DNA of 16,029 nucleotides from an uncultured Verrucomicrobiota bacterium (GTDB lineage Bacteria > Verrucomicrobiota > Verrucomicrobiia > Chthoniobacterales > SZAS-18): NCBI GenBank assembly GCA_937873255.1, contig CALMVM010000607.1, forward strand, positions 1 through 16,029. Reading direction: 5' to 3'. The position numbers and the translations under genes are program-made. Positions 4,823 to 14,700 of the stretch are shown piece by piece. The notes under the pieces are model-generated. The model worked only from the letters and a program-made list of their open reading frames with translations, was not told the origin of the DNA and ran no database searches. How positions within the stretch are numbered: the first letter of the stretch is position 1; every line of letters starts with the position of its first letter.

Positions 4823-7462
4823 GTGGACCGGAAAGCCATTCGTGATGGATTCGCGCCAAACCTCGCTCGCCACCCGCCGTCCGCGCATCTACGTTGCTCT
4901 GTGCCGCTCACCCTCTACGACCTGCTGCCGCGCGCGACGGATGTGCCGACCAACGACTTCCTGCTCGGCCGCTTCCTCGAATACGTCGCCGGCCGCTCGC
5001 TCGAACTCTACCCCGCGCAGGAAGCCGCCATCCTGGAACTCTTCGAGGAAAAAAACGTCATCCTCAACACCCCCACCGGCTCCGGCAAATCGCTCGTCGC
5101 CGCCGCGTTGCAATTCAAGGCGCTCGCGCAGGGCCGCCGCTCGGTCTACACCTGCCCGATCAAGGCGCTGGTCAACGAAAAATGGCTCGCGCTGTGCCGC
5201 GAGTTCGGCCCGCAAAACGTCGGGCTTTGCACGGGCGACGCCACGGTCAACCAGGGCGCGCCGATCCTGTGCTGCACGGCCGAAATCCTCGCCAACGTGG
5301 CGTTGCGCGAGGGTTCGCGCGCGGACGTGCGCGACGTGATCCTCGACGAGTTCCACTACTACGCCGACCGCGAGCGCGGCGGGGCGTGGCAGATCCCGCT
5401 GCTCACGTTGCCGCAGGCGCGCTTCCTCCTCATGTCGGCGACGCTCGGGGACACGGCGTTTTTCGAGGAAGAACTAACATCGCTCACGCAACGCGAGACG
5501 ATCACCGTGCGCGCGACCGAACGGCCCGTGCCGCTGGAATATAGTTACTCCGAGACTCCGCTCGCGCAGACATTAGAAGGCCTCGTCACCGGCGACAAGG
5601 GGCCGGTGTACGTCGTCCATTTTACGCAGGCGGCGGCGGCCGAGAGCGCGCAGGCATTCACCAGCATCAACGTCAGCAGTAGGGACGAGAAGGCGGCGAT
5701 TGCCCGCGCGCTGGAAGGCTTCCGGTTCGCCAGCCCGTACGGATCGGAGCTGAAACGCTGGCTGCGCCACGGCATCGGCCTGCACCACGCCGGATTGCTG
5801 CCGAAATACCGCGTGCTGGTCGAGCAACTCGCGCAGCAGGGATTGTTGAAAGTCATCTGCGGCACGGACACGCTCGGCGTCGGGATCAACGTGCCGATCC
5901 GCACCGTGCTCTTCACGCGGCTGTGCAAGTACGATGGACAAAAAACGGCGATCCTGAGCGCGCGTGATTTCCACCAGATCGGCGGGCGCGCGGGTCGGAA
6001 GGGCTATGACAACATTGGGTATGTCGTCGCGCAGGCTCCCGAGCATGTCATCGAAAATCTCCAGCTCGAACAAAAGGCCAACGGCAAGAAATTCGTGCGC
6101 CGCAAACCACCCGAAAAAGGTTATGTGCCGTGGGACAAGACGACCTTTACGCGTCTGATCTCCGCGCCGCCCGAGCGTCTCCAACCGCAACTTCAGATCA
6201 CCCACGGCACGCTGCTCAATGTCCTCAGCCGCACGCACGAGGACGGCTGCCGCGCGATGCAACGTCTCATCCGCGCCAGCCACGATCCCGCGAAAACCAA
6301 GCGAACGAACTTCCGCCGCGCGTGGCAACTGTTCCGCTCGCTGGTGGAGCGCAAGATCGTGGAGTTCGTCCCGCGCGATGCGAACGGCGTGAAGCTGCGG
6401 CTCAACGTCGGGTTGCAGGAGGATTTTTCGATGAACCACGCGCTGTCGCTGTACGTCCACGACACGCTCGAAGTCATGGACCCGCAAGCACCGGACTATG
6501 CGCTCGTGGTTCTAACATTGGTCGAGTCGATATTAGAAGACCCGGACCTGATCCTGCACCGACAACTGGCAAAGCTCAAAACGCAAGCCGTCGCGCAGAT
6601 GAAGGTCGACGGCGTCGAGTACGACGAACGCATGGAGCGTCTCGAACTACTCGAACCCCCCAAGCCCAACCGCGAATTCATCTACAGCACCTTCAATCGC
6701 TTCGCCGGGATACATCCGTGGGTCGGTCAGGAAAACATCCACATCAAGTCCATCGCGCGCGAGATGTACGAGGAATTCCGCTCGTTCGCCGACTACATCA
6801 AGATCTACGAACTCCAACGCGCCGAGGGCCTGCTCCTGCGCCACCTGACGAGCGTTTACAAAGCCCTTTCGCAGACCGTCCCCGACGCCGCCAAGAACGA
6901 CGCCCTGCGCGAGATCGAACTCTACCTGGGCGCGTTGGTCCGCCAGGTGGACAGCAGCCTGCTCGACGAATGGCGGCGGATGCAGGACCCCGACTACCGT
7001 CCAACGCTCGGCGAGGAACCGGAAGTGCGCCCGCCCGGCTGGGAGGAAGCGCAAAAGGACATTACGCGAGACAAGGAGGTGTTCACGGCGCTGGTGCGCA
7101 ACACAATCTTCGCGTTCCTGCGTGCATTATCCATCGGTGATTACCCGGCCGCGCTGACGGCGTTGGGCGAATCCCCCGCCGGGCAAGACGAATCGTGGAC
7201 CACCGAGCGTCTGCGCGCCGCCTTCGACGGATTCCTCGCCGCGCGCGGCCGCATGAGGCTCGATCCCGAGGCGCGCAACCGTCGGCACACCTACGTCGTC
7301 TCCAACGACGAGGACAAAAACCGCTGGCTCGTGCAGCAGATGCTCGTCGATCCCGACGAGGCCAACGACTGGACGGCGGAGTTCGACCTGGACCTCGCCC
7401 TTTCGCGCGAGCGCGGCGAACCGGCGATGCGCCTGCGCCGGCTCGGGCCCTTGACGGAATGA
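4823..7462 (+). CDS. SKI2-like DExH-box helicase with DUF3516-type C-terminus
   Basis: This 879-residue superfamily 2 helicase carries all expected motifs. These are NTPTGSGKS (residues 82-90, Walker A), [10 protein letters not shown] (111-120, Ia), [14 protein letters not shown] (173-186, motif II as DEFH), MSATLGD (204-210, III), [10 protein letters not shown] (318-327), [13 protein letters not shown] (346-358, V) and [10 protein letters not shown] (385-394, VI). The last three are typical of the Ski2/Mtr4/HelY group, which unwinds RNA or DNA with ATP. The C-terminal half (about 430-879) is helix-rich and fits the DUF3516 region found on bacterial members. Substrate and pathway are unknown. 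The GTG at 4823 is only 24 bases from the divergent TPR gene and codes an odd 26-residue leader. An in-frame GTG at 4901 (giving [10 protein letters not shown]) would leave about 100 bases for two promoters and may be the true start. Neither start has a clear ribosome-binding site. Confidence 0.95.
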
Positions 7463-7518: not shown

Positions 7519-8082
7519 ATGAACCGACTCAAGTCCACTCTCACGATCATCAGCGCCGCCCTTTTGTGTTCCACGACGCCGCTCTTGGCGCAGCAAAAAC
7601 GCACCAGCCCGCACGAGACGGTCAGCGCGAACATCGACGGCAGCCTCGTTACGGTTGTCTACGGCCGCCCCTTCACGAAGGACCCCAAGAGCGGCGAGGC
7701 GCGCAAGATCTGGGGCGGCCTCGTGCCGTTCGGCCAGGTGTGGCGTCTGGGCGCGGACGAGGCGACGCTGCTCGTCACTGCCAAGCCGCTCGACATCGCC
7801 GGCACGACGATCCCGGCCGGCGCGTACGAACTCTTCATGCTGCCTGCGGAAAACGGCGCGTCCAAGCTCATCGTCAACAAGAAGCTCGGCGAATGGGGTG
7901 CCTACACGTATGACGACAAGCAGGACCTCGCGCGCCTCGATCTCAAGCAGGAAGCGGCCTCGTTGGCTCCCGATCAATTCACCATCGCCATCGATAAAGG
8001 CGACAAAGGCAGTGGCGCCGGGACGCTGAAGTTCGCCTGGGCCGACGCGATGTATTCGCTGCCGTTCACGCTGAAGAAATAA
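7519..8082 (+). CDS. Exported DUF2911-family protein
   Basis: This 187-residue protein has a clear signal peptide (residues 1-24, cut near PLLA-QQK). The family signature follows: SPHETVSANIDGSLVTVVYG at about 31-50, then RPFTKDPKSGEARKIWGGLV, then PFGQVWRLGADEATLL at 70-85. DUF2911 proteins are exported, small and beta-rich, and no reaction has been assigned to the family that I know of. The ATG is supported by the signal peptide. AGAGGAAGG at about 7495-7503 is purine-rich but 15-16 bases upstream, too far for an ideal ribosome-binding site. The gene stands 56 bases after the helicase and 16 bases before the PIG-L gene, so it could be the first gene of the plus-strand run ending with bshA. 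A functional tie to that run is only positional. Confidence 0.93.
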   Translation: MNRLKSTLTIISAALLCSTTPLLAQQKRTSPHETVSANIDGSLVTVVYGRPFTKDPKSGEARKIWGGLVPFGQVWRLGADEATLLVTAKPLDIAGTTIPAGAYELFMLPAENGASKLIVNKKLGEWGAYTYDDKQDLARLDLKQEAASLAPDQFTIAIDKGDKGSGAGTLKFAWADAMYSLPFTLKK

Positions 8083-8098: not shown

Positions 8099-10663
8099 AT
8101 GCGTTTCCTTCGTTCGGTCCGGTTCCCCGCGAGCCGGCGGCTGATCCCTGTTGTCATGGCCCTTAGCGCGTTGGGCGCGGCGGCGTCCGCGCAAGAACCG
8201 CCGCCGTCGGCGTCGATGATCTTGCAGGAACTCCGCGCCTTCCGCGAATGCGGCAGCGTGCTCTACATCGCCGCGCATCCCGACGATGAGAACACGCAGT
8301 TCCTCGCCTACCTTGCGCGCGGACGCGGGGTGCGGACGGGTTATCTGTCGTTGACGCGCGGCGAGGGCGGGCAGGATTTGATCGGCCCCGAGATCGGCGA
8401 TCCGCTGGGCGTCATCCGCACGCAGGAGCTCCTTGCCGCCCGGCGCATCGACGGCGCGGAGCAGTTTTTCACGCGGGCGCGGGACTTCGGTTTCTCCAAG
8501 AGCTACGAGCAGACGCTCGCTAAGTGGGGCAAACAGGAAGTGCTCTCCGACGTGGTGCGCGTGATCCGACAATTCCGCCCCGATGTGATTGTCACGCGTT
8601 TCCCGCCCGAGCCCGGCGGCACGCACGGCCACCACACCGCGAGTACGGTGCTGGCGCTGGAAGCGTTCAAGCTTGCAGGCGATCCGAAGGCGTTTCCCGA
8701 ATGTGGCCTGGCATGGCAAACGAAGCGCATTTTCTGGAACAGCTTCCGCGACGCACACGGCAGCACGCCGCCATTGCGGTTAGACATCGGCGGCTATTTG
8801 CCGTTGCTGGGTGAATCTATCGGCGAGATCGCCGCGCGTAGCCGTTCGAGCCACCGCAGCCAAGGTTACGGATCGGTCGCCACGCGCGGTTCGCGCATGG
8901 ACGATTTCCAACCGCTCGACGGAAAGCCGGTGGGCAAGGACTTGTTCGACGGTGTTGATACCACTTGGGCGAGATGGCCGGGCGGTGCGGAGTTCGGCAA
9001 GGTCATCGATGATACTATCGACCACTTCGACCCAGAAAATCCGGCAGCCAGCGTGCCCGCGCTGATGCACGCCAAGACAACGCTCATTTATAAATTAGGC
9101 AATCTTGAGATGCCGGGGGATCCCGGTGTTGATTCGGCCGTGCCCGAGGCAAAGTTTCGTCAGTTTGACCGGATCGTGCAGGACTGTCTCGGACTGTACG
9201 TCGAGACAACCATTGCCCAGGCGGAGGTCGTCCCGGGAGAAACAATCCATGCGCGCCACACGATCCTGCTTCGCTCCGCTGCAAACGCCGAGTTCGCGAA
9301 TGTGTTCCTGCATCCGGCGCAAAATCAACGTCCGATCCATAATGCTTTGGATCATCTCGTCGCGCTGCATGAGAACCAGCCGTTCGTTCAGGAAATCACC
9401 TTCGAGGTGCCGGATGGTGAGCCGCCGACGCAACCTTACTGGTTGCACGACAACGGTACGGCCGGATTGTATGGCGTCTGGGGTCCTGGCGACCGCGACT
9501 ATCAACATGTGATCGGCATGCCGGACCTTTTGTATAGGTTGGGCGTGGACGACAACTTCAATGTAGAAGGAGAGAGCTTGGTTGTTTCTTCGGAAGTGAT
9601 GCAGATCACCGCCGATCCATCCAAAGGCGAAATTCACCGCAGGGTAGACGTGATTTCGCCGGTGTCGCTTACGCCGGCCCGCGATGTGGAGCTTTTCGCG
9701 CCTGGGTCCGACCGAACGGTGGAAGTCGAAGTCAAAGCCTATCGCCCCGACCAGGCGGGCACGCTGAGACTCGCCGTGCCCGCTGGCTGGGCGGTCACAC
9801 CGGAGTCGCAGCCGTTCCACCTCGCGGCGGTCGGCGACCATGTGCGGCTAGCGTTCACGGTCCATGCGCCCGCGCAGTCGGGCACCGCCGCCATCACCGC
9901 TGAGGCGACGGTCGGCGGACGCACCTACAACACCACCCGACAGGAAATCCGTTACGACCACATCCCGTTCCAACTCCTCCAACCGCCCGCGCGTCTGAAA
10001 GCTGTCTGTCTCGATCTCCAGATTCGCGGTAAGAACGTCGGCTACCTGCCCGGCGTGGGGGATAGGACTGCCGAGGCTCTCGCGGCGATGGGTTATAACG
10101 TGATAACGCTCTCCGGCGCGGACCTGACGCCTGAGCGGCTGCGTGCGTTCGACGCGGTAGTCGTCGGAGTGCGTGCGTTCAACGTCCGCACGGACCTCGC
10201 CGCAGGGTTGAACGCACTGTTTGCGTATGCCGAGAACGGCGGCACGGTTGTCGAGCAGTACAACACGCCCAACGAATTGAAGAACCCGCGCCTCGCGCCG
10301 TACGCGCTGGAACTCTCGCGCGACCTGCCCCGCCAGCGGGTCACGGACGAAAACGCGCCCGTCACGCTGCTGGCCCCGGACCATCCGGCGTTCAACGTGC
10401 CCAACCGACTCACGCCCGCCGACTTCGACGGCTGGGTGCAGGAACGCGGGCTGAATTTCCCCGTCACCTGGGACCAGGAACATTTCCAGGCGCTACTCGC
10501 ATGCAGCGACGTGGGCGAAGCGCCGTTGAAAAGCGGCCTGCTCGTGGCGCGTCGCGGCAAGGGATATTTCGTGTACACGGGGCTGTCGTTTTTCCGGCAG
10601 TTACCCGCCGGTGTACCGGGTGCGTACCGGTTGTTCGCCAACCTCGTTTCGCTGGGAAAATAA
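8099..10663 (+). CDS. Large exported PIG-L family deacetylase with ThuA-like C-terminal domain
   Basis: An 854-residue, three-part protein. A signal peptide (1 to about 31, ending AASAQ) directs it out of the cytoplasm. Residues of about 52-280 form a PIG-L/LmbE domain with the zinc motif AAHPDDE (58-64) and the second metal-ligand motif HGHHTAS (176-182). These enzymes remove acetyl groups from N-acetylglucosamine-type substrates. The middle (about 520-620) is beta-rich and resembles the NEW3/alpha-galactosidase-associated domain. From about 630 to the end there is a ThuA/glutamine-amidotransferase-like Rossmann domain (FDAVVVGVRAFNVRTDL, then GKGYFVYTGLSFFRQLPAG). The gene is 4 bases from a small membrane-protein gene and then a symporter. 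That order suggests processing of an extracellular amino-sugar compound followed by uptake, which is inference. It belongs to the same enzyme superfamily as BshB/MshB, but its size and export argue against a role as the cytosolic BshB. Confidence 0.93.
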   Translation: MRFLRSVRFPASRRLIPVVMALSALGAAASAQEPPPSASMILQELRAFRECGSVLYIAAHPDDENTQFLAYLARGRGVRTGYLSLTRGEGGQDLIGPEIGDPLGVIRTQELLAARRIDGAEQFFTRARDFGFSKSYEQTLAKWGKQEVLSDVVRVIRQFRPDVIVTRFPPEPGGTHGHHTASTVLALEAFKLAGDPKAFPECGLAWQTKRIFWNSFRDAHGSTPPLRLDIGGYLPLLGESIGEIAARSRSSHRSQGYGSVATRGSRMDDFQPLDGKPVGKDLFDGVDTTWARWPGGAEFGKVIDDTIDHFDPENPAASVPALMHAKTTLIYKLGNLEMPGDPGVDSAVPEAKFRQFDRIVQDCLGLYVETTIAQAEVVPGETIHARHTILLRSAANAEFANVFLHPAQNQRPIHNALDHLVALHENQPFVQEITFEVPDGEPPTQPYWLHDNGTAGLYGVWGPGDRDYQHVIGMPDLLYRLGVDDNFNVEGESLVVSSEVMQITADPSKGEIHRRVDVISPVSLTPARDVELFAPGSDRTVEVEVKAYRPDQAGTLRLAVPAGWAVTPESQPFHLAAVGDHVRLAFTVHAPAQSGTAAITAEATVGGRTYNTTRQEIRYDHIPFQLLQPPARLKAVCLDLQIRGKNVGYLPGVGDRTAEALAAMGYNVITLSGADLTPERLRAFDAVVVGVRAFNVRTDLAAGLNALFAYAENGGTVVEQYNTPNELKNPRLAPYALELSRDLPRQRVTDENAPVTLLAPDHPAFNVPNRLTPADFDGWVQERGLNFPVTWDQEHFQALLACSDVGEAPLKSGLLVARRGKGYFVYTGLSFFRQLPAGVPGAYRLFANLVSLGK

Positions 10664-10797: not shown

Positions 10798-12516
10798 GTG
10801 AACGCCCTCGACTACCTCGTTCTCTTCGGCACGCTCGCGGGAATCGCCGCTTACGGAATCTGGCGCACGCGTGGCCGGCGTGACCTCCACTCGTACCTCA
10901 AGGGCAACCGCCAGACGGGTTGGCTGACCATCGGGCTTTCCGTGATGGCCACCCAAGCCAGCGCGATCACTTTTCTCTCCGCGACCGGACAGGGATACGG
11001 CGATGGGTTGGGCTTCATCCAGAACTATTTCGGGATGCCGCTGGCGCTGATCATCGTCGCGGCGGTGTTCGTGCCGATCTACCGGCGGTCGGGTGTCTAC
11101 ACCGCCTACGAATATCTCGGAAGACGCTTCGACGGCAAAACGCGGTTGCTCGGCGCGGGGTTGTTCCTGCTCCAACGTGGGTTGGGCGCGGGCATCACGA
11201 TCTACGCGCCGGCCATCGTGCTGTCGGCGTTGATGGGTTGGCGCCTGGACCTGACGATCATCGGCACCGGTCTGCTCGCGGTCGCCTACACGGTCAGCGG
11301 CGGCAACGACGCCGTGAACCTCACGCAGAAGTACCAACTCGGCATCATCTTCGCGGGGATGTTCGCGGCGGGTTGGATATTAGTTTCGCGTCTGCCGGCG
11401 GGCCTGACGCTTGATGACACACTGACGCTCGCTGGCAGCTACGGCAAACTGAAGGCGGTGGATTTCTCCCCCAATCTGGAACGCCGCTACACGTTCCTCG
11501 CGGGGCTCGTTGGCGGGTTGTTTTTGCAACTATCGTATTTCGGCGCGGACCAGTCGCAGGTTGGCCGTTATCTCGGCGGCGGGTCGGTGCGCGAAAGCCG
11601 GCTCGGGCTGATGTTCAACGCCGTGTGCAAGATCCCGATGCAGTTTTTCATCCTGATGCTCGGGGTGTTGACCTTTGTTTTCTATCGTTTCGAGACGCCG
11701 CCGGTGTTCTTTAACGAACCCGCCTGGAACTACCAGACCGCGCACGGCGCGGGCGAACGTCTGAACACTCTCCGCGTCGAGTTCGACGCCGCGCACGCGC
11801 AGGAACGCCAGGGCATCGAGGCCTGGGTCGCCGCGCGCCATTCCGGCGATGCCGCCGCCGCCGAACGCTCCCGCGCCGCCGCGCTCTCCGCGCACGAACA
11901 CGCCGCGGCCGCCCGCCGCGGCACCCGCGAGGCACTCCATGCGGCCGACGGAAGTCTCCCGACGGAAGATTCCGATTACGTGTTCATTACCTTCGTTTTG
12001 CGTCACTTGCCGCATGGATTGATCGGCCTGCTCGTGGCCGCCATTCTCGCCGCCGCGATGAACTCGAAAGCGAGCGAACTCAACGCGCTCGCCTCCACCA
12101 CGACCGTCGATTTCTACCGGCCGCTGCTGCGCCGGGAGGCGCCGGACGCGCACTATATTCGCGTGTCTCCTTGGCTGACGGTTTTTTGGGGAACGGTTGC
12201 CATTGCGTTCGCGTTGTTCGCGCATCTGGTGGAGAACCTCATTCAGGCCAGCAATATTCTCGGATCGATTTTTTACGGAGTGGTGCTCGGATTGTTCCTC
12301 GTAGCTTTTTTCCTGCGGCGGGTGAACGGGACGGCCGTGTTCTGGGGCGCGCTCGCAGCGCAGGCGACCGTGATCGTGATGTACGTCGGGCAGGTGCCGA
12401 TTTCCTATCTGTGGTACAATCTGATCGGTTGCGTGGCGTGCATGCTCTTTAGTTCGATCATTCAAGCCATGCTCGGCCGCGCGGATGTTCCGCCGCTGAA
12501 CGACTCCCCCGCATGA
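10798..12516 (+). CDS. Sodium:solute symporter (SSS family)
   Basis: This 572-residue multi-pass inner-membrane transporter has the SSS fold. The first helix is LDYLVLFGTLAGIAAYGIW. The next helix region, WLTIGLSVMATQASAITFLS (residues 41-60), contributes to the sodium site. The region FVLRHLPHGLIGLLVAAILA onward to AAMNSKASELNALAST is a family hallmark. The substrate cannot be read from sequence. Between the helix ending FVFYRFETPP (about 300) and FVLRHLPHG (about 400) lies a long soluble insertion. Its middle is Ala/Arg/His/Glu-rich and probably a helical hairpin. The GTG start at 10798 follows the small membrane-protein stop by one base. Its stop overlaps the next gene's ATG (ATGA, 12513-12516). 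These junctions imply coupled translation across the small protein, the transporter and the BshC-like protein. Confidence 0.95.
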   Translation: MNALDYLVLFGTLAGIAAYGIWRTRGRRDLHSYLKGNRQTGWLTIGLSVMATQASAITFLSATGQGYGDGLGFIQNYFGMPLALIIVAAVFVPIYRRSGVYTAYEYLGRRFDGKTRLLGAGLFLLQRGLGAGITIYAPAIVLSALMGWRLDLTIIGTGLLAVAYTVSGGNDAVNLTQKYQLGIIFAGMFAAGWILVSRLPAGLTLDDTLTLAGSYGKLKAVDFSPNLERRYTFLAGLVGGLFLQLSYFGADQSQVGRYLGGGSVRESRLGLMFNAVCKIPMQFFILMLGVLTFVFYRFETPPVFFNEPAWNYQTAHGAGERLNTLRVEFDAAHAQERQGIEAWVAARHSGDAAAAERSRAAALSAHEHAAAARRGTREALHAADGSLPTEDSDYVFITFVLRHLPHGLIGLLVAAILAAAMNSKASELNALASTTTVDFYRPLLRREAPDAHYIRVSPWLTVFWGTVAIAFALFAHLVENLIQASNILGSIFYGVVLGLFLVAFFLRRVNGTAVFWGALAAQATVIVMYVGQVPISYLWYNLIGCVACMLFSSIIQAMLGRADVPPLNDSPA

Positions 12517-13274
12517 GCGCGATCATTTGTTTCGGCCAGCAGCCGTGCGGGTTTTTTCCGCGCCGTTTTCTGTCCGCGAAGATCGTCACGGCCCGCCGGC
12601 TGGCGAAGGAACTCGGCGGCGAGATCGTGTTCTTCTACCACGACAGCGACCATGACCCACGCGAGACCCAGACGATCCTCACCCACCGCAAAACCGGTGA
12701 ACAGGCCAAGCTGAATTTTCACTGCGACAATAAGGTCCAGCGCAAGTGGTCGCCTCTCTACGCCAAGCACGTTTCCGCCGAATGGCAGGCGAACACCGCG
12801 CGCCAACTCCCTGCCTACGTGGACCCAACGCTGGTCGAGTATTTTCGCGGTGTCGGGGCACGCAACGTCGCCGATTTCTGCCTGGAGATGTACGCGAAGA
12901 TGGGGCTTCTCGACGGTATACGCGTGGTGCGTTCGGGCAACCCGGCGGTGAGGCAGGCGGCGTGCGCGGTGGCGGATTATTTCGTGGACGTGCCTTACGA
13001 GGGAGAGACGGTCCGCGCGCGCTGGCAGGATGGCGCGTTGCGTCTGCATGAGGGCGGCGGCGCGTACCGGACGTTACCCGGCGCGGAGTTCGGCAAGGAA
13101 CAAATCAGCCCGACTCGCGACACCCGGCTGCGCTGGATGCAATCGGTGGTACGCTGCACGCATTATGTCACCGGGGCGGGGGAGGCGGCTTACTTGAACA
13201 CCGCCGACGCGCCGGAAATCACGTTCGTCACGCGCGATGGGATCGAGCGTTCCGATGAAGCATGGACGGGCTGA
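12513..13274 (+). CDS. Compact BshC-like protein (putative bacillithiol synthase / cysteine ligase)
   Basis: A 253-residue cytosolic protein with no signal peptide. Compared from memory with Bacillus BshC (about 540 residues), the hallmarks appear in the right order. FGQQPCGFF (7-15) matches the N-terminal GQQ-G motif. IVFFYHDSDHDPRET (38-52) matches the 'PVFWIAGEDHDFxE' strand and loop. DFCLEMYAKMGLLDGIRVVR (121-140) followed by SGNPAVR matches 'FF..M...F...GL.LIDSGHPAFR'. RDTRLRWMQ (202-210) matches 'VxTRPLMQ', and YVTGAGEAAY (218-227) matches 'FIAGPGEIAYW'. Missing are the N-terminal helical part, the middle insertion and the long C-terminal coiled coil. BshC joins cysteine to glucosaminyl-malate to make bacillithiol. 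With bshA two genes downstream, a thiol-synthesis role is likely but unproven. The start is fixed by the 4-base overlap with the symporter gene. Confidence 0.8.
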   Translation: MSAIICFGQQPCGFFPRRFLSAKIVTARRLAKELGGEIVFFYHDSDHDPRETQTILTHRKTGEQAKLNFHCDNKVQRKWSPLYAKHVSAEWQANTARQLPAYVDPTLVEYFRGVGARNVADFCLEMYAKMGLLDGIRVVRSGNPAVRQAACAVADYFVDVPYEGETVRARWQDGALRLHEGGGAYRTLPGAEFGKEQISPTRDTRLRWMQSVVRCTHYVTGAGEAAYLNTADAPEITFVTRDGIERSDEAWTG

Positions 13275-13311
13275 AACTACCCTCGCGCAAACCCTGATTT
13301 AACCCCCACCG

Positions 13312-13551
13312 ATGAGCACAAATTCTTCCGATTCCACCGAACGCTGGGCATCCGAATGGCTCGACTCCGTCGCCGACGGCTCCAACACGATGAGCCAGCG
13401 CAAACTCACCTCCGTGGAAAAGCTCGGCGGTGGCATCGAAGCCGTCAAAGCCATCGCCAAGCGGAAGGGCGTCCATCTACTCCTGCTCGAAGACGACAAG
13501 GGCAACGAATTGATCGCGGCGAGCACGAAGCCGTTCAAGGTCGTGTGTTGA
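13312..13551 (+). CDS. Small protein of unknown function between the bshC-like gene and bshA
   Basis: A 79-residue protein from ATG at 13312 that I do not recognise. It starts with a Ser/Thr-rich, probably disordered stretch (STNSSDST). It then has an amphipathic segment (RWASEWLDSVADG) and a helix-strand-turn-strand pattern (VEKLGGGIEAVKAIAKRKGV, then HLLLLEDDKGNELIAAS), ending TKPFKVVC with a terminal cysteine. It has no signal peptide or membrane helix. Codon third positions are G/C-rich as in its neighbours, and the gene lies 37 bases after the BshC-like stop and 21 before bshA, all same strand, which supports it as a real operon member. A complementary-strand frame (13299-13538) is judged a shadow. 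Position suggests a link to thiol metabolism, but nothing in the sequence proves it. Confidence 0.75.
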   Translation: MSTNSSDSTERWASEWLDSVADGSNTMSQRKLTSVEKLGGGIEAVKAIAKRKGVHLLLLEDDKGNELIAASTKPFKVVC

Positions 13552-13572
13552 TCCGATTTCCCGCATCGCGCA

Positions 13573-14700
13573 TTGAAGATCGGCCTGACCTGTTACCCTT
13601 CCGTGGGCGGAAGCGGCGTGCTGGCAACGGCGTTGGGCGAGGAACTGGCCCGGCGCGGGCACGAGGTGCATTTCATTTCCTACGAACGGCCTTTCCGGCT
13701 GTCGGAGGCGGCGGAGCGGGTGTCGTTCCATCCCGTCGTCATCAACGATTACGGGCTATTCAAGTATCCCGATTACACGTTGCCGCTCTCGGTGAAAATG
13801 GCCGAGGTCAGCCGGTCGCATGCCCTCGACGTGCTCCACGTCCATTACGCGGTGCCCCACGCGACGGCCGCCGTGCTCGCGCGCTCGATGCTACCACCCG
13901 GCCGGCAGCCCCGGATCGTCACGACGCTCCATGGCACGGACACCACGCTGCTCGGCTGCGATGCGGGTTACGCGCCGGCGATCCGGTACGGACTGGCGCA
14001 ATCGGATGCGGTCACGACCGTCTCCGGTTTCCTGCGTGACGAGACGCGGCGGTTGCTCGGCGTCGAGCGGCCCATCGACGTGATCTACAATTTCTTCGCC
14101 CCACGCGCTCCGCGCCGTTCGCGCGACGAAACACGCCGCGAACTCGGGCTCGCTCCCGGCGAGAATCTCGTTTTGCATACCTCCAACCTGCGCCCGCTCA
14201 AACGCATCGACCTCCTCCTGCAAACCGTGGCGCGCCTGCGCCTGCATGGATCGTTCCGTTTGCTCTTGCTGGCGGGCGGGGATTGGCAGCCGTTCGAGCA
14301 AGAAGCGCGGCGGCTCGGCGTGGCGAATCGCGTGATCGTCCGTCGGGAAATCAGTGAGGTGGAGGAATATTTCCAGGCCGCCGACCTGGCGTTGTTTACG
14401 TCCGAGAGCGAGAGTTTTTGCCTCGGGATTCTGGAGGCGATGTTCTTCGGTTGTCCGAGCGTGGCGATGGCGGTGGGCGGCATCCCGGAGGTGGTGGAAA
14501 ACGGCGTGAGCGGGAGACTGGTGCCGTTCGGCAATGTGGACGCGGCGGCGCGCGCGTTGGAGGAATTGTCGGCCGATCCTGCTCGCCGCAAGGCGATGGG
14601 CCGGGCGGCGAAACATCGCGCGGAACAACGTTTTTCCGCCGACGTGATCGTGCCGGCCTACGAGGCTCTCTACCGGCGCGTCTGCGGTGGGAGTGCCTGA
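13573..14700 (+). CDS. bshA: N-acetyl-alpha-D-glucosaminyl L-malate synthase (BshA)
   Basis: A 375-residue GT-B glycosyltransferase of family GT4 that joins GlcNAc from UDP-GlcNAc to L-malate, the first step of bacillithiol synthesis. Seen: KIGLTCYPSVGGSG at residues 2-15, FKYPDY (63-68), VLHVHYAVPHA (88-98), TTLHGTDTTLLG (117-128), SNLRPLKR (204-211) and the GT4 E-x7-E pair in ESFCLGILEA (E280, E288), then GGIPEVVENGVSG (302-314). These match the order and wording of Bacillus BshA, including the malate-site region, better than generic GT4 enzymes. The TTG at 13573 is chosen because it places the first residues exactly as in BshA; no ribosome-binding site is clear. It is the last gene of the plus-strand run, and its end overlaps the convergent hydrolase gene by 31 bases. 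Confidence 0.94.
   Translation: MKIGLTCYPSVGGSGVLATALGEELARRGHEVHFISYERPFRLSEAAERVSFHPVVINDYGLFKYPDYTLPLSVKMAEVSRSHALDVLHVHYAVPHATAAVLARSMLPPGRQPRIVTTLHGTDTTLLGCDAGYAPAIRYGLAQSDAVTTVSGFLRDETRRLLGVERPIDVIYNFFAPRAPRRSRDETRRELGLAPGENLVLHTSNLRPLKRIDLLLQTVARLRLHGSFRLLLLAGGDWQPFEQEARRLGVANRVIVRREISEVEEYFQAADLALFTSESESFCLGILEAMFFGCPSVAMAVGGIPEVVENGVSGRLVPFGNVDAAARALEELSADPARRKAMGRAAKHRAEQRFSADVIVPAYEALYRRVCGGSA

Follow-up and report, generated by a model that had tools for sequence, protein, structure and literature searches.

The window analyzed here is a stretch of 16,029 nucleotides from an uncultured Verrucomicrobiota bacterium (contig CALMVM010000607.1 of assembly GCA_937873255.1), and its forward strand carries, at 12513–13274, an open reading frame (ORF) for a 253-residue protein that a profile match, a fold match and co-occurrence with BshA identify as a short relative of BshC. 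Its ATG lies within an ATGA shared with the TGA of the gene upstream, which codes for a sodium:solute symporter (SSF; 10798–12516; PF00474, 111.3 bits), and downstream on the same strand lies bshA (13573–14700), whose 375-residue product scores over the equivalog cut-off for N-acetyl-glucosaminyl L-malate synthase (TIGR03999, 404.2 bits against 273.7). A previous reading of this DNA from its letters alone (the sequence-only reading) had placed the short gene between the same start and stop, had recognized bshA beside it and had described a protein well below the usual size (full-length BshC has about 520–540 residues) with the motifs of bacillithiol synthase in order; all of this holds, the motifs being GQQPCG, DSDHD, GLLDGIRVVRSGNPAVR, TRDTRLRWMQ and GAGEAAY. 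The motifs go beyond chance, because an 18-member alignment of the short family has GQQPCG, H43, D44, D46, H47, D48, R50, E51 and T52 as invariant residues, along with R202, R205, W208, C215, T216, H217, Y218, G221, E224 and Y227.

The short protein is homologous to BshC and shares its fold, as the sequence-only reading had proposed by comparison with the Bacillus enzyme. Profile–profile comparison of the short family with BshC gave E values of 8.3e-9 and 1.2e-6, one for each direction, and the best E value among 150 column-shuffled profiles was 0.0065, against 9e-9 for the real profile. Identity to BshC is 17–19%. A 35-member alignment of BshC has 22 invariant columns, 18 of them inside the part aligned with the short family, and at 11 of these 18 core columns the short family holds the same residue at a frequency of at least 97%. 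Searched by sequence against the PDB, the ORF found weak ribosomal-protein matches only (E about 1); by structure, BshC is the best match of a high-confidence fold, covering 237 of the 253 residues and standing 5.6 Z units over the next match, and the Rossmann-type core fold of BshC structure 4wbd is present. According to the profile alignment, the short protein lacks everything ahead of about residue 81–84 of BshC, a middle stretch of about 35 residues and the greater part of what comes after about residue 345–390, so that the loss of the N-terminal helical part, the middle insertion and the C-terminal coiled coil described earlier is upheld, save perhaps at the far end of BshC. The last 20 residues of the short protein align to BshC only under forced global alignment; the final pair of the structural alignment, which is reported by its first and last residues, lies at residue 512 of 4wbd, and a short segment beyond the coiled coil may have been retained. 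The coiled-coil domain itself (PF24850), found in nearly all of the full-length relatives listed, is not in the 253-residue protein. Thus, the short protein corresponds to the Rossmann-type core of BshC, stripped of the N-terminal helices, of a segment in the middle and, wholly or for the most part, of the C-terminal coiled-coil domain. It resembles BshC (YllA; PF10079 with a C-terminal PF24850) in the order of GQQ, K, DxD..E, R and G..E..Y, in a core fold extending over 237 residues, in its place in the order bshC-bshB-bshA and in its strict pairing with BshA, and differs in its length and its missing parts. Since a search for a Pfam match and one for the C-terminal domain both came back empty, we keep it outside PF10079; on present evidence, it would nevertheless work like BshC.

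The distribution of the short family follows that of BshA. In a sample of 240 genomes of the phylum, 16 have a BshA that scores over its cut-off and 2 have PF10079. The short family is present in 14, and these carriers are exactly the 16 BshA genomes minus the two with PF10079. A second group, of 77 genomes, was drawn from the class of G292, a genome titled Candidatus Obscuribacterales that harbors locus L103; it has the short family in six genomes, BshA over the cut-off in the same six and PF10079 in none. BshA is therefore over its cut-off in 20 of the 20 carriers of the two samples. The sequence-only reading had raised the question of a normal-length bshC elsewhere in the genomes of carriers: PF10079 had no match in the window's own genome, in the 14 carriers found in the phylum, in 24 carriers picked from the loci described below or in the six of the second group. 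The sets overlap in part: G292 and G293 belong to both of the last two, and some of the 24 are on contigs equal in length to contigs in the samples of the phylum or of relatives. Among genomes with BshA in the two groups sampled, the short protein replaces full-length BshC one to one.

The family is large. Of 8,000 candidates scored in a protein search, 6,870 matched at an E value of 0.001 or better, and among the 120 matches listed every named one is a "hypothetical protein." With one genome scanned per species, 303 relatives came up, and because the best 80 of these were studied (L039–L118), the gene-order counts, made over 81 neighborhoods (the window and the 80 loci), tilt to close relatives. 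In 77 of the 81, bshA follows downstream on the same strand, and in 75 of these 77 loci a gene for a small PIG-L protein stands between short bshC and bshA. Three such small PIG-L proteins scanned against NCBIfam had BshB1 as their best match, at 134, 127.3 and 132.5 bits (cut-off 182.5). The order bshC, PIG-L, bshA also occurs in both genomes with full-length BshC (G100 and G178), and in the one of them that was scanned BshB1 is over its cut-off, at 207.3 bits; as the order is common to both kinds of locus, the short gene sits in the place of bshC. The two loci devoid of a small PIG-L gene at this position are L069 and the window itself (13275–13572). Where relatives have bshB, the window has a 79-residue ORF (13312–13551, forward strand; no Pfam match), which we dropped as a part of the conserved cluster, as it is seen in 1 of the 81 neighborhoods, the window.

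The conserved gene set continues upstream. In 78 of the 81 neighborhoods, a homolog of the symporter precedes short bshC on the same strand, and in 66 (64 with a shorter query) a large PIG-L protein, of 854 residues in the window (8099–10663, forward strand; PF02585, 64.2 bits), is encoded further upstream. Among NCBIfam models, the window's large PIG-L protein scores best to the mycothiol conjugate amidase Mca, at 62.8 bits, far under the cut-off of 277, and its N-terminus looks, to the eye, like a signal peptide. The set opens with a DUF2911 protein of 187 residues (7519–8082, forward strand; PF11138, 127.4 bits), with homologs in 62 neighborhoods, 61 of them on the same strand. The sequence-only reading had caught bshA but had passed over the PIG-L protein, the symporter and the absence of the usual bshB. 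The symporter and the large PIG-L protein set the short loci apart from the two full-length bshC loci examined, which have other genes upstream; PIG-L and symporter genes are presumably found near bshC in Bacteroidota.

We propose, with a probability of roughly 80%, that the short protein is a minimal BshC, which would complete bacillithiol synthesis by attaching L-cysteine to the amine of glucosaminyl-malate; that it catalyzes this reaction, on this substrate and toward this thiol, we infer from its homology and genomic context. The product of the neighboring gene, BshA, would supply GlcNAc-malate, from which a PIG-L deacetylase would release the free amine; in most relatives this would be the BshB1-like protein encoded in the cluster, and in the window's organism presumably some other PIG-L protein. 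Cysteine would then be added by the short BshC to glucosaminyl-malate, perhaps by way of an activated cysteine intermediate, as class I synthetase-like enzymes work via an activated substrate. The window's own genome, which is 89.98% complete, has two other PIG-L proteins, on contigs C428 (76.7 bits to BshB1) and C260 (19 bits); a glutathione synthetase (PF02955) had no match there. The sequence-only reading had offered a minimal cysteine ligase or, alternatively, a new branch that produces another thiol. The checks it had named, a profile match, a structural match and the absence of full-length BshC from the carriers examined, came out in its favor; the minimal ligase is its better supported half, and the results speak neither for nor against the other.

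Several observations weigh against this proposal. Pfam and NCBIfam scans of the ORF returned no model at an E value of 1, PF10079 included, and hmmsearch with the BshC profile built for this analysis did not recover the short family at 1e-3. Seven of the 18 invariant core columns are unmatched, W127 and R280 among them (some are perhaps misaligned), and four more invariant residues of BshC sit in the absent C-terminal part. The Fisher probabilities for the pairing with BshA (7e-21 in the phylum, 4e-9 in the second group) ignore shared ancestry. No bshA was found at L039 and L054, with about 10 kb downstream, or at L086 and L110, with 4.1 and 1.2 kb to the contig end. Within the window's family (G000–G006), a profile of the small PIG-L protein has strong matches in 2 of 7 genomes (G002 and G005), and in at least four relatives, G001, G003, G004 and G006 (L138, L139, L140 and L141), a bshA-like gene directly follows short bshC without bshB. 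Other observations either count against the proposal or fall outside it: in two of the six carriers of the second group, the matches are separated by just 53 and 181 bases, which leaves no room for bshB; the symporter is absent from three of the 81 neighborhoods (L060, L099 and L118) and the large PIG-L protein from 15, of which L046, L048 and L099 have at least 9.7 kb upstream; and neither is encoded within the stretch examined in G005 or G006.

The protein might instead be a BshC-like ligase that uses another amino acid or another glucosaminyl compound, so that the pathway yields some other thiol or small molecule. Its half length, its low identity to BshC, the seven unmatched core columns and its unusual partners, the exported-looking PIG-L protein and the symporter, are all consistent with this, and sequence alone cannot tell the substrate. 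However, the neighbor passes the BshA cut-off and the usual deacetylase is nearest to BshB1, so that the precursor should be glucosaminyl-malate, and full-length BshC is absent from carriers; we regard a different product as improbable. MshC, the mycothiol cysteine ligase, catalyzes an analogous reaction, joining cysteine to a glucosaminyl amine (PMC4360819). MshC is not among the structural matches listed for the short protein, although the two may still be related, and the neighboring glycosyltransferase scores 404 bits to BshA and 88.7 bits to MshA (cut-off 462.5).

Far less probable is a relative by fold only, a class I synthetase or nucleotidyltransferase-like protein with a function outside thiols: BshC stands well clear of the next structural match over nearly the whole chain, invariant residues are common to BshC and the short family, and in both groups the carriers coincide with the genomes that are BshA-positive and PF10079-negative. 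Class I lysyl-tRNA synthetase (1irx), for example, is 10% identical, and the short protein is without its anticodon-binding part and is linked in the genome to bshA. We give even less credence to a degenerate or split remnant of full-length BshC, either inactive or dependent on a separate C-terminal partner. The missing C-terminal domain, and a window cluster that also lacks bshB, would fit such a remnant, but the family counts thousands of proteins of similar length, with many residues invariant and a fold of high confidence, and no ORF in the 81 neighborhoods matches the full-length BshC profile at an E value of 1e-3, the rest of the genome not having been searched for a partner.

If the short protein is a minimal BshC, as we propose, it probably performs the cysteine-adding step in bacteria where that step had gone unrecognized, including Verrucomicrobia. 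A 2018 survey, among whose criteria were 30% identity and similar length, listed Verrucomicrobia with those major lineages that have "no documented or predicted" thiol of low molecular weight (PMC6282198); a 2025 survey asked for similar length and more than 80% coverage, and its main text, as distinct from its dataset, never uses "Verrucomicro-" (PMC12719100). Filters of this kind would drop a half-length BshC. In the open-licence literature we found no description of the short family or of bacillithiol in these lineages; as far as these searches show, the chemistry is known and the form and spread of the enzyme are undescribed. Verrucomicrobia and the other carriers thus gain a predicted bacillithiol pathway that is open to thiol profiling. 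Moreover, according to a 2015 review, no one had yet demonstrated BshC activity in vitro or established the mechanism (PMC4360819); a protein of half the size offers a handle on this chemistry, and its lack of a coiled coil raises the question of which features of BshC are needed.

By the depositors' own titles, the 80 loci come mostly from Opitutales and other Verrucomicrobia, with one Methylacidimicrobium and Limisphaerales/Pedosphaera, and four (L101, L103, L114 and L117) are titled Obscuribacterales or Cyanobacteria. The short proteins of these four are 66–67% identical to that of the window, and the same cluster is carried, which suggests, from similarity and gene content, that the cluster may have passed between phyla; no relatives of the short family were found in the viral contigs searched. 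The large PIG-L protein and the symporter could form part of a recycling loop, in which thiol conjugates would be cleaved and glucosaminyl-malate re-imported for re-use; we propose this, more weakly, from the exported look of the large PIG-L protein and from Mca being its best NCBIfam match, far below the cut-off. The wider picture is tentative and, taken as a whole, rather unlikely: an autonomous minimal cysteine ligase would represent a second lineage of BshC, used by Verrucomicrobiota as well as by organisms whose records are titled non-photosynthetic Cyanobacteria, and would act together with a sodium symporter and an exported PIG-L amidase in a previously undescribed recycling of thiol conjugates across the inner membrane.

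Some further observations concern single loci. The bshB match in G005 is split over two frames (L142, contig C522, about 6100–6800, minus strand), owing to a broken gene or an assembly error. In the window's own genome, the PIG-L gene on contig C260 (L123) adjoins a gene for a YcaO protein (PF02624, 160 bits), which is unconnected with the cluster in the 81 neighborhoods. In G100 and G178, a gene that, judging from its sequence, may code for a methyltransferase overlaps the start of full-length bshC (L119, 8799–9554; L120, 9982–10776) and could be of the NmbA type, which methylates bacillithiol; near short bshC, no such gene was detected in the 81 neighborhoods at an E value of 1e-5. Finally, the window encodes at 4823–7462 a helicase with a DEAD domain and DUF3516 (PF12029, 484 bits), with homologs in two of the 81 neighborhoods, the window included.
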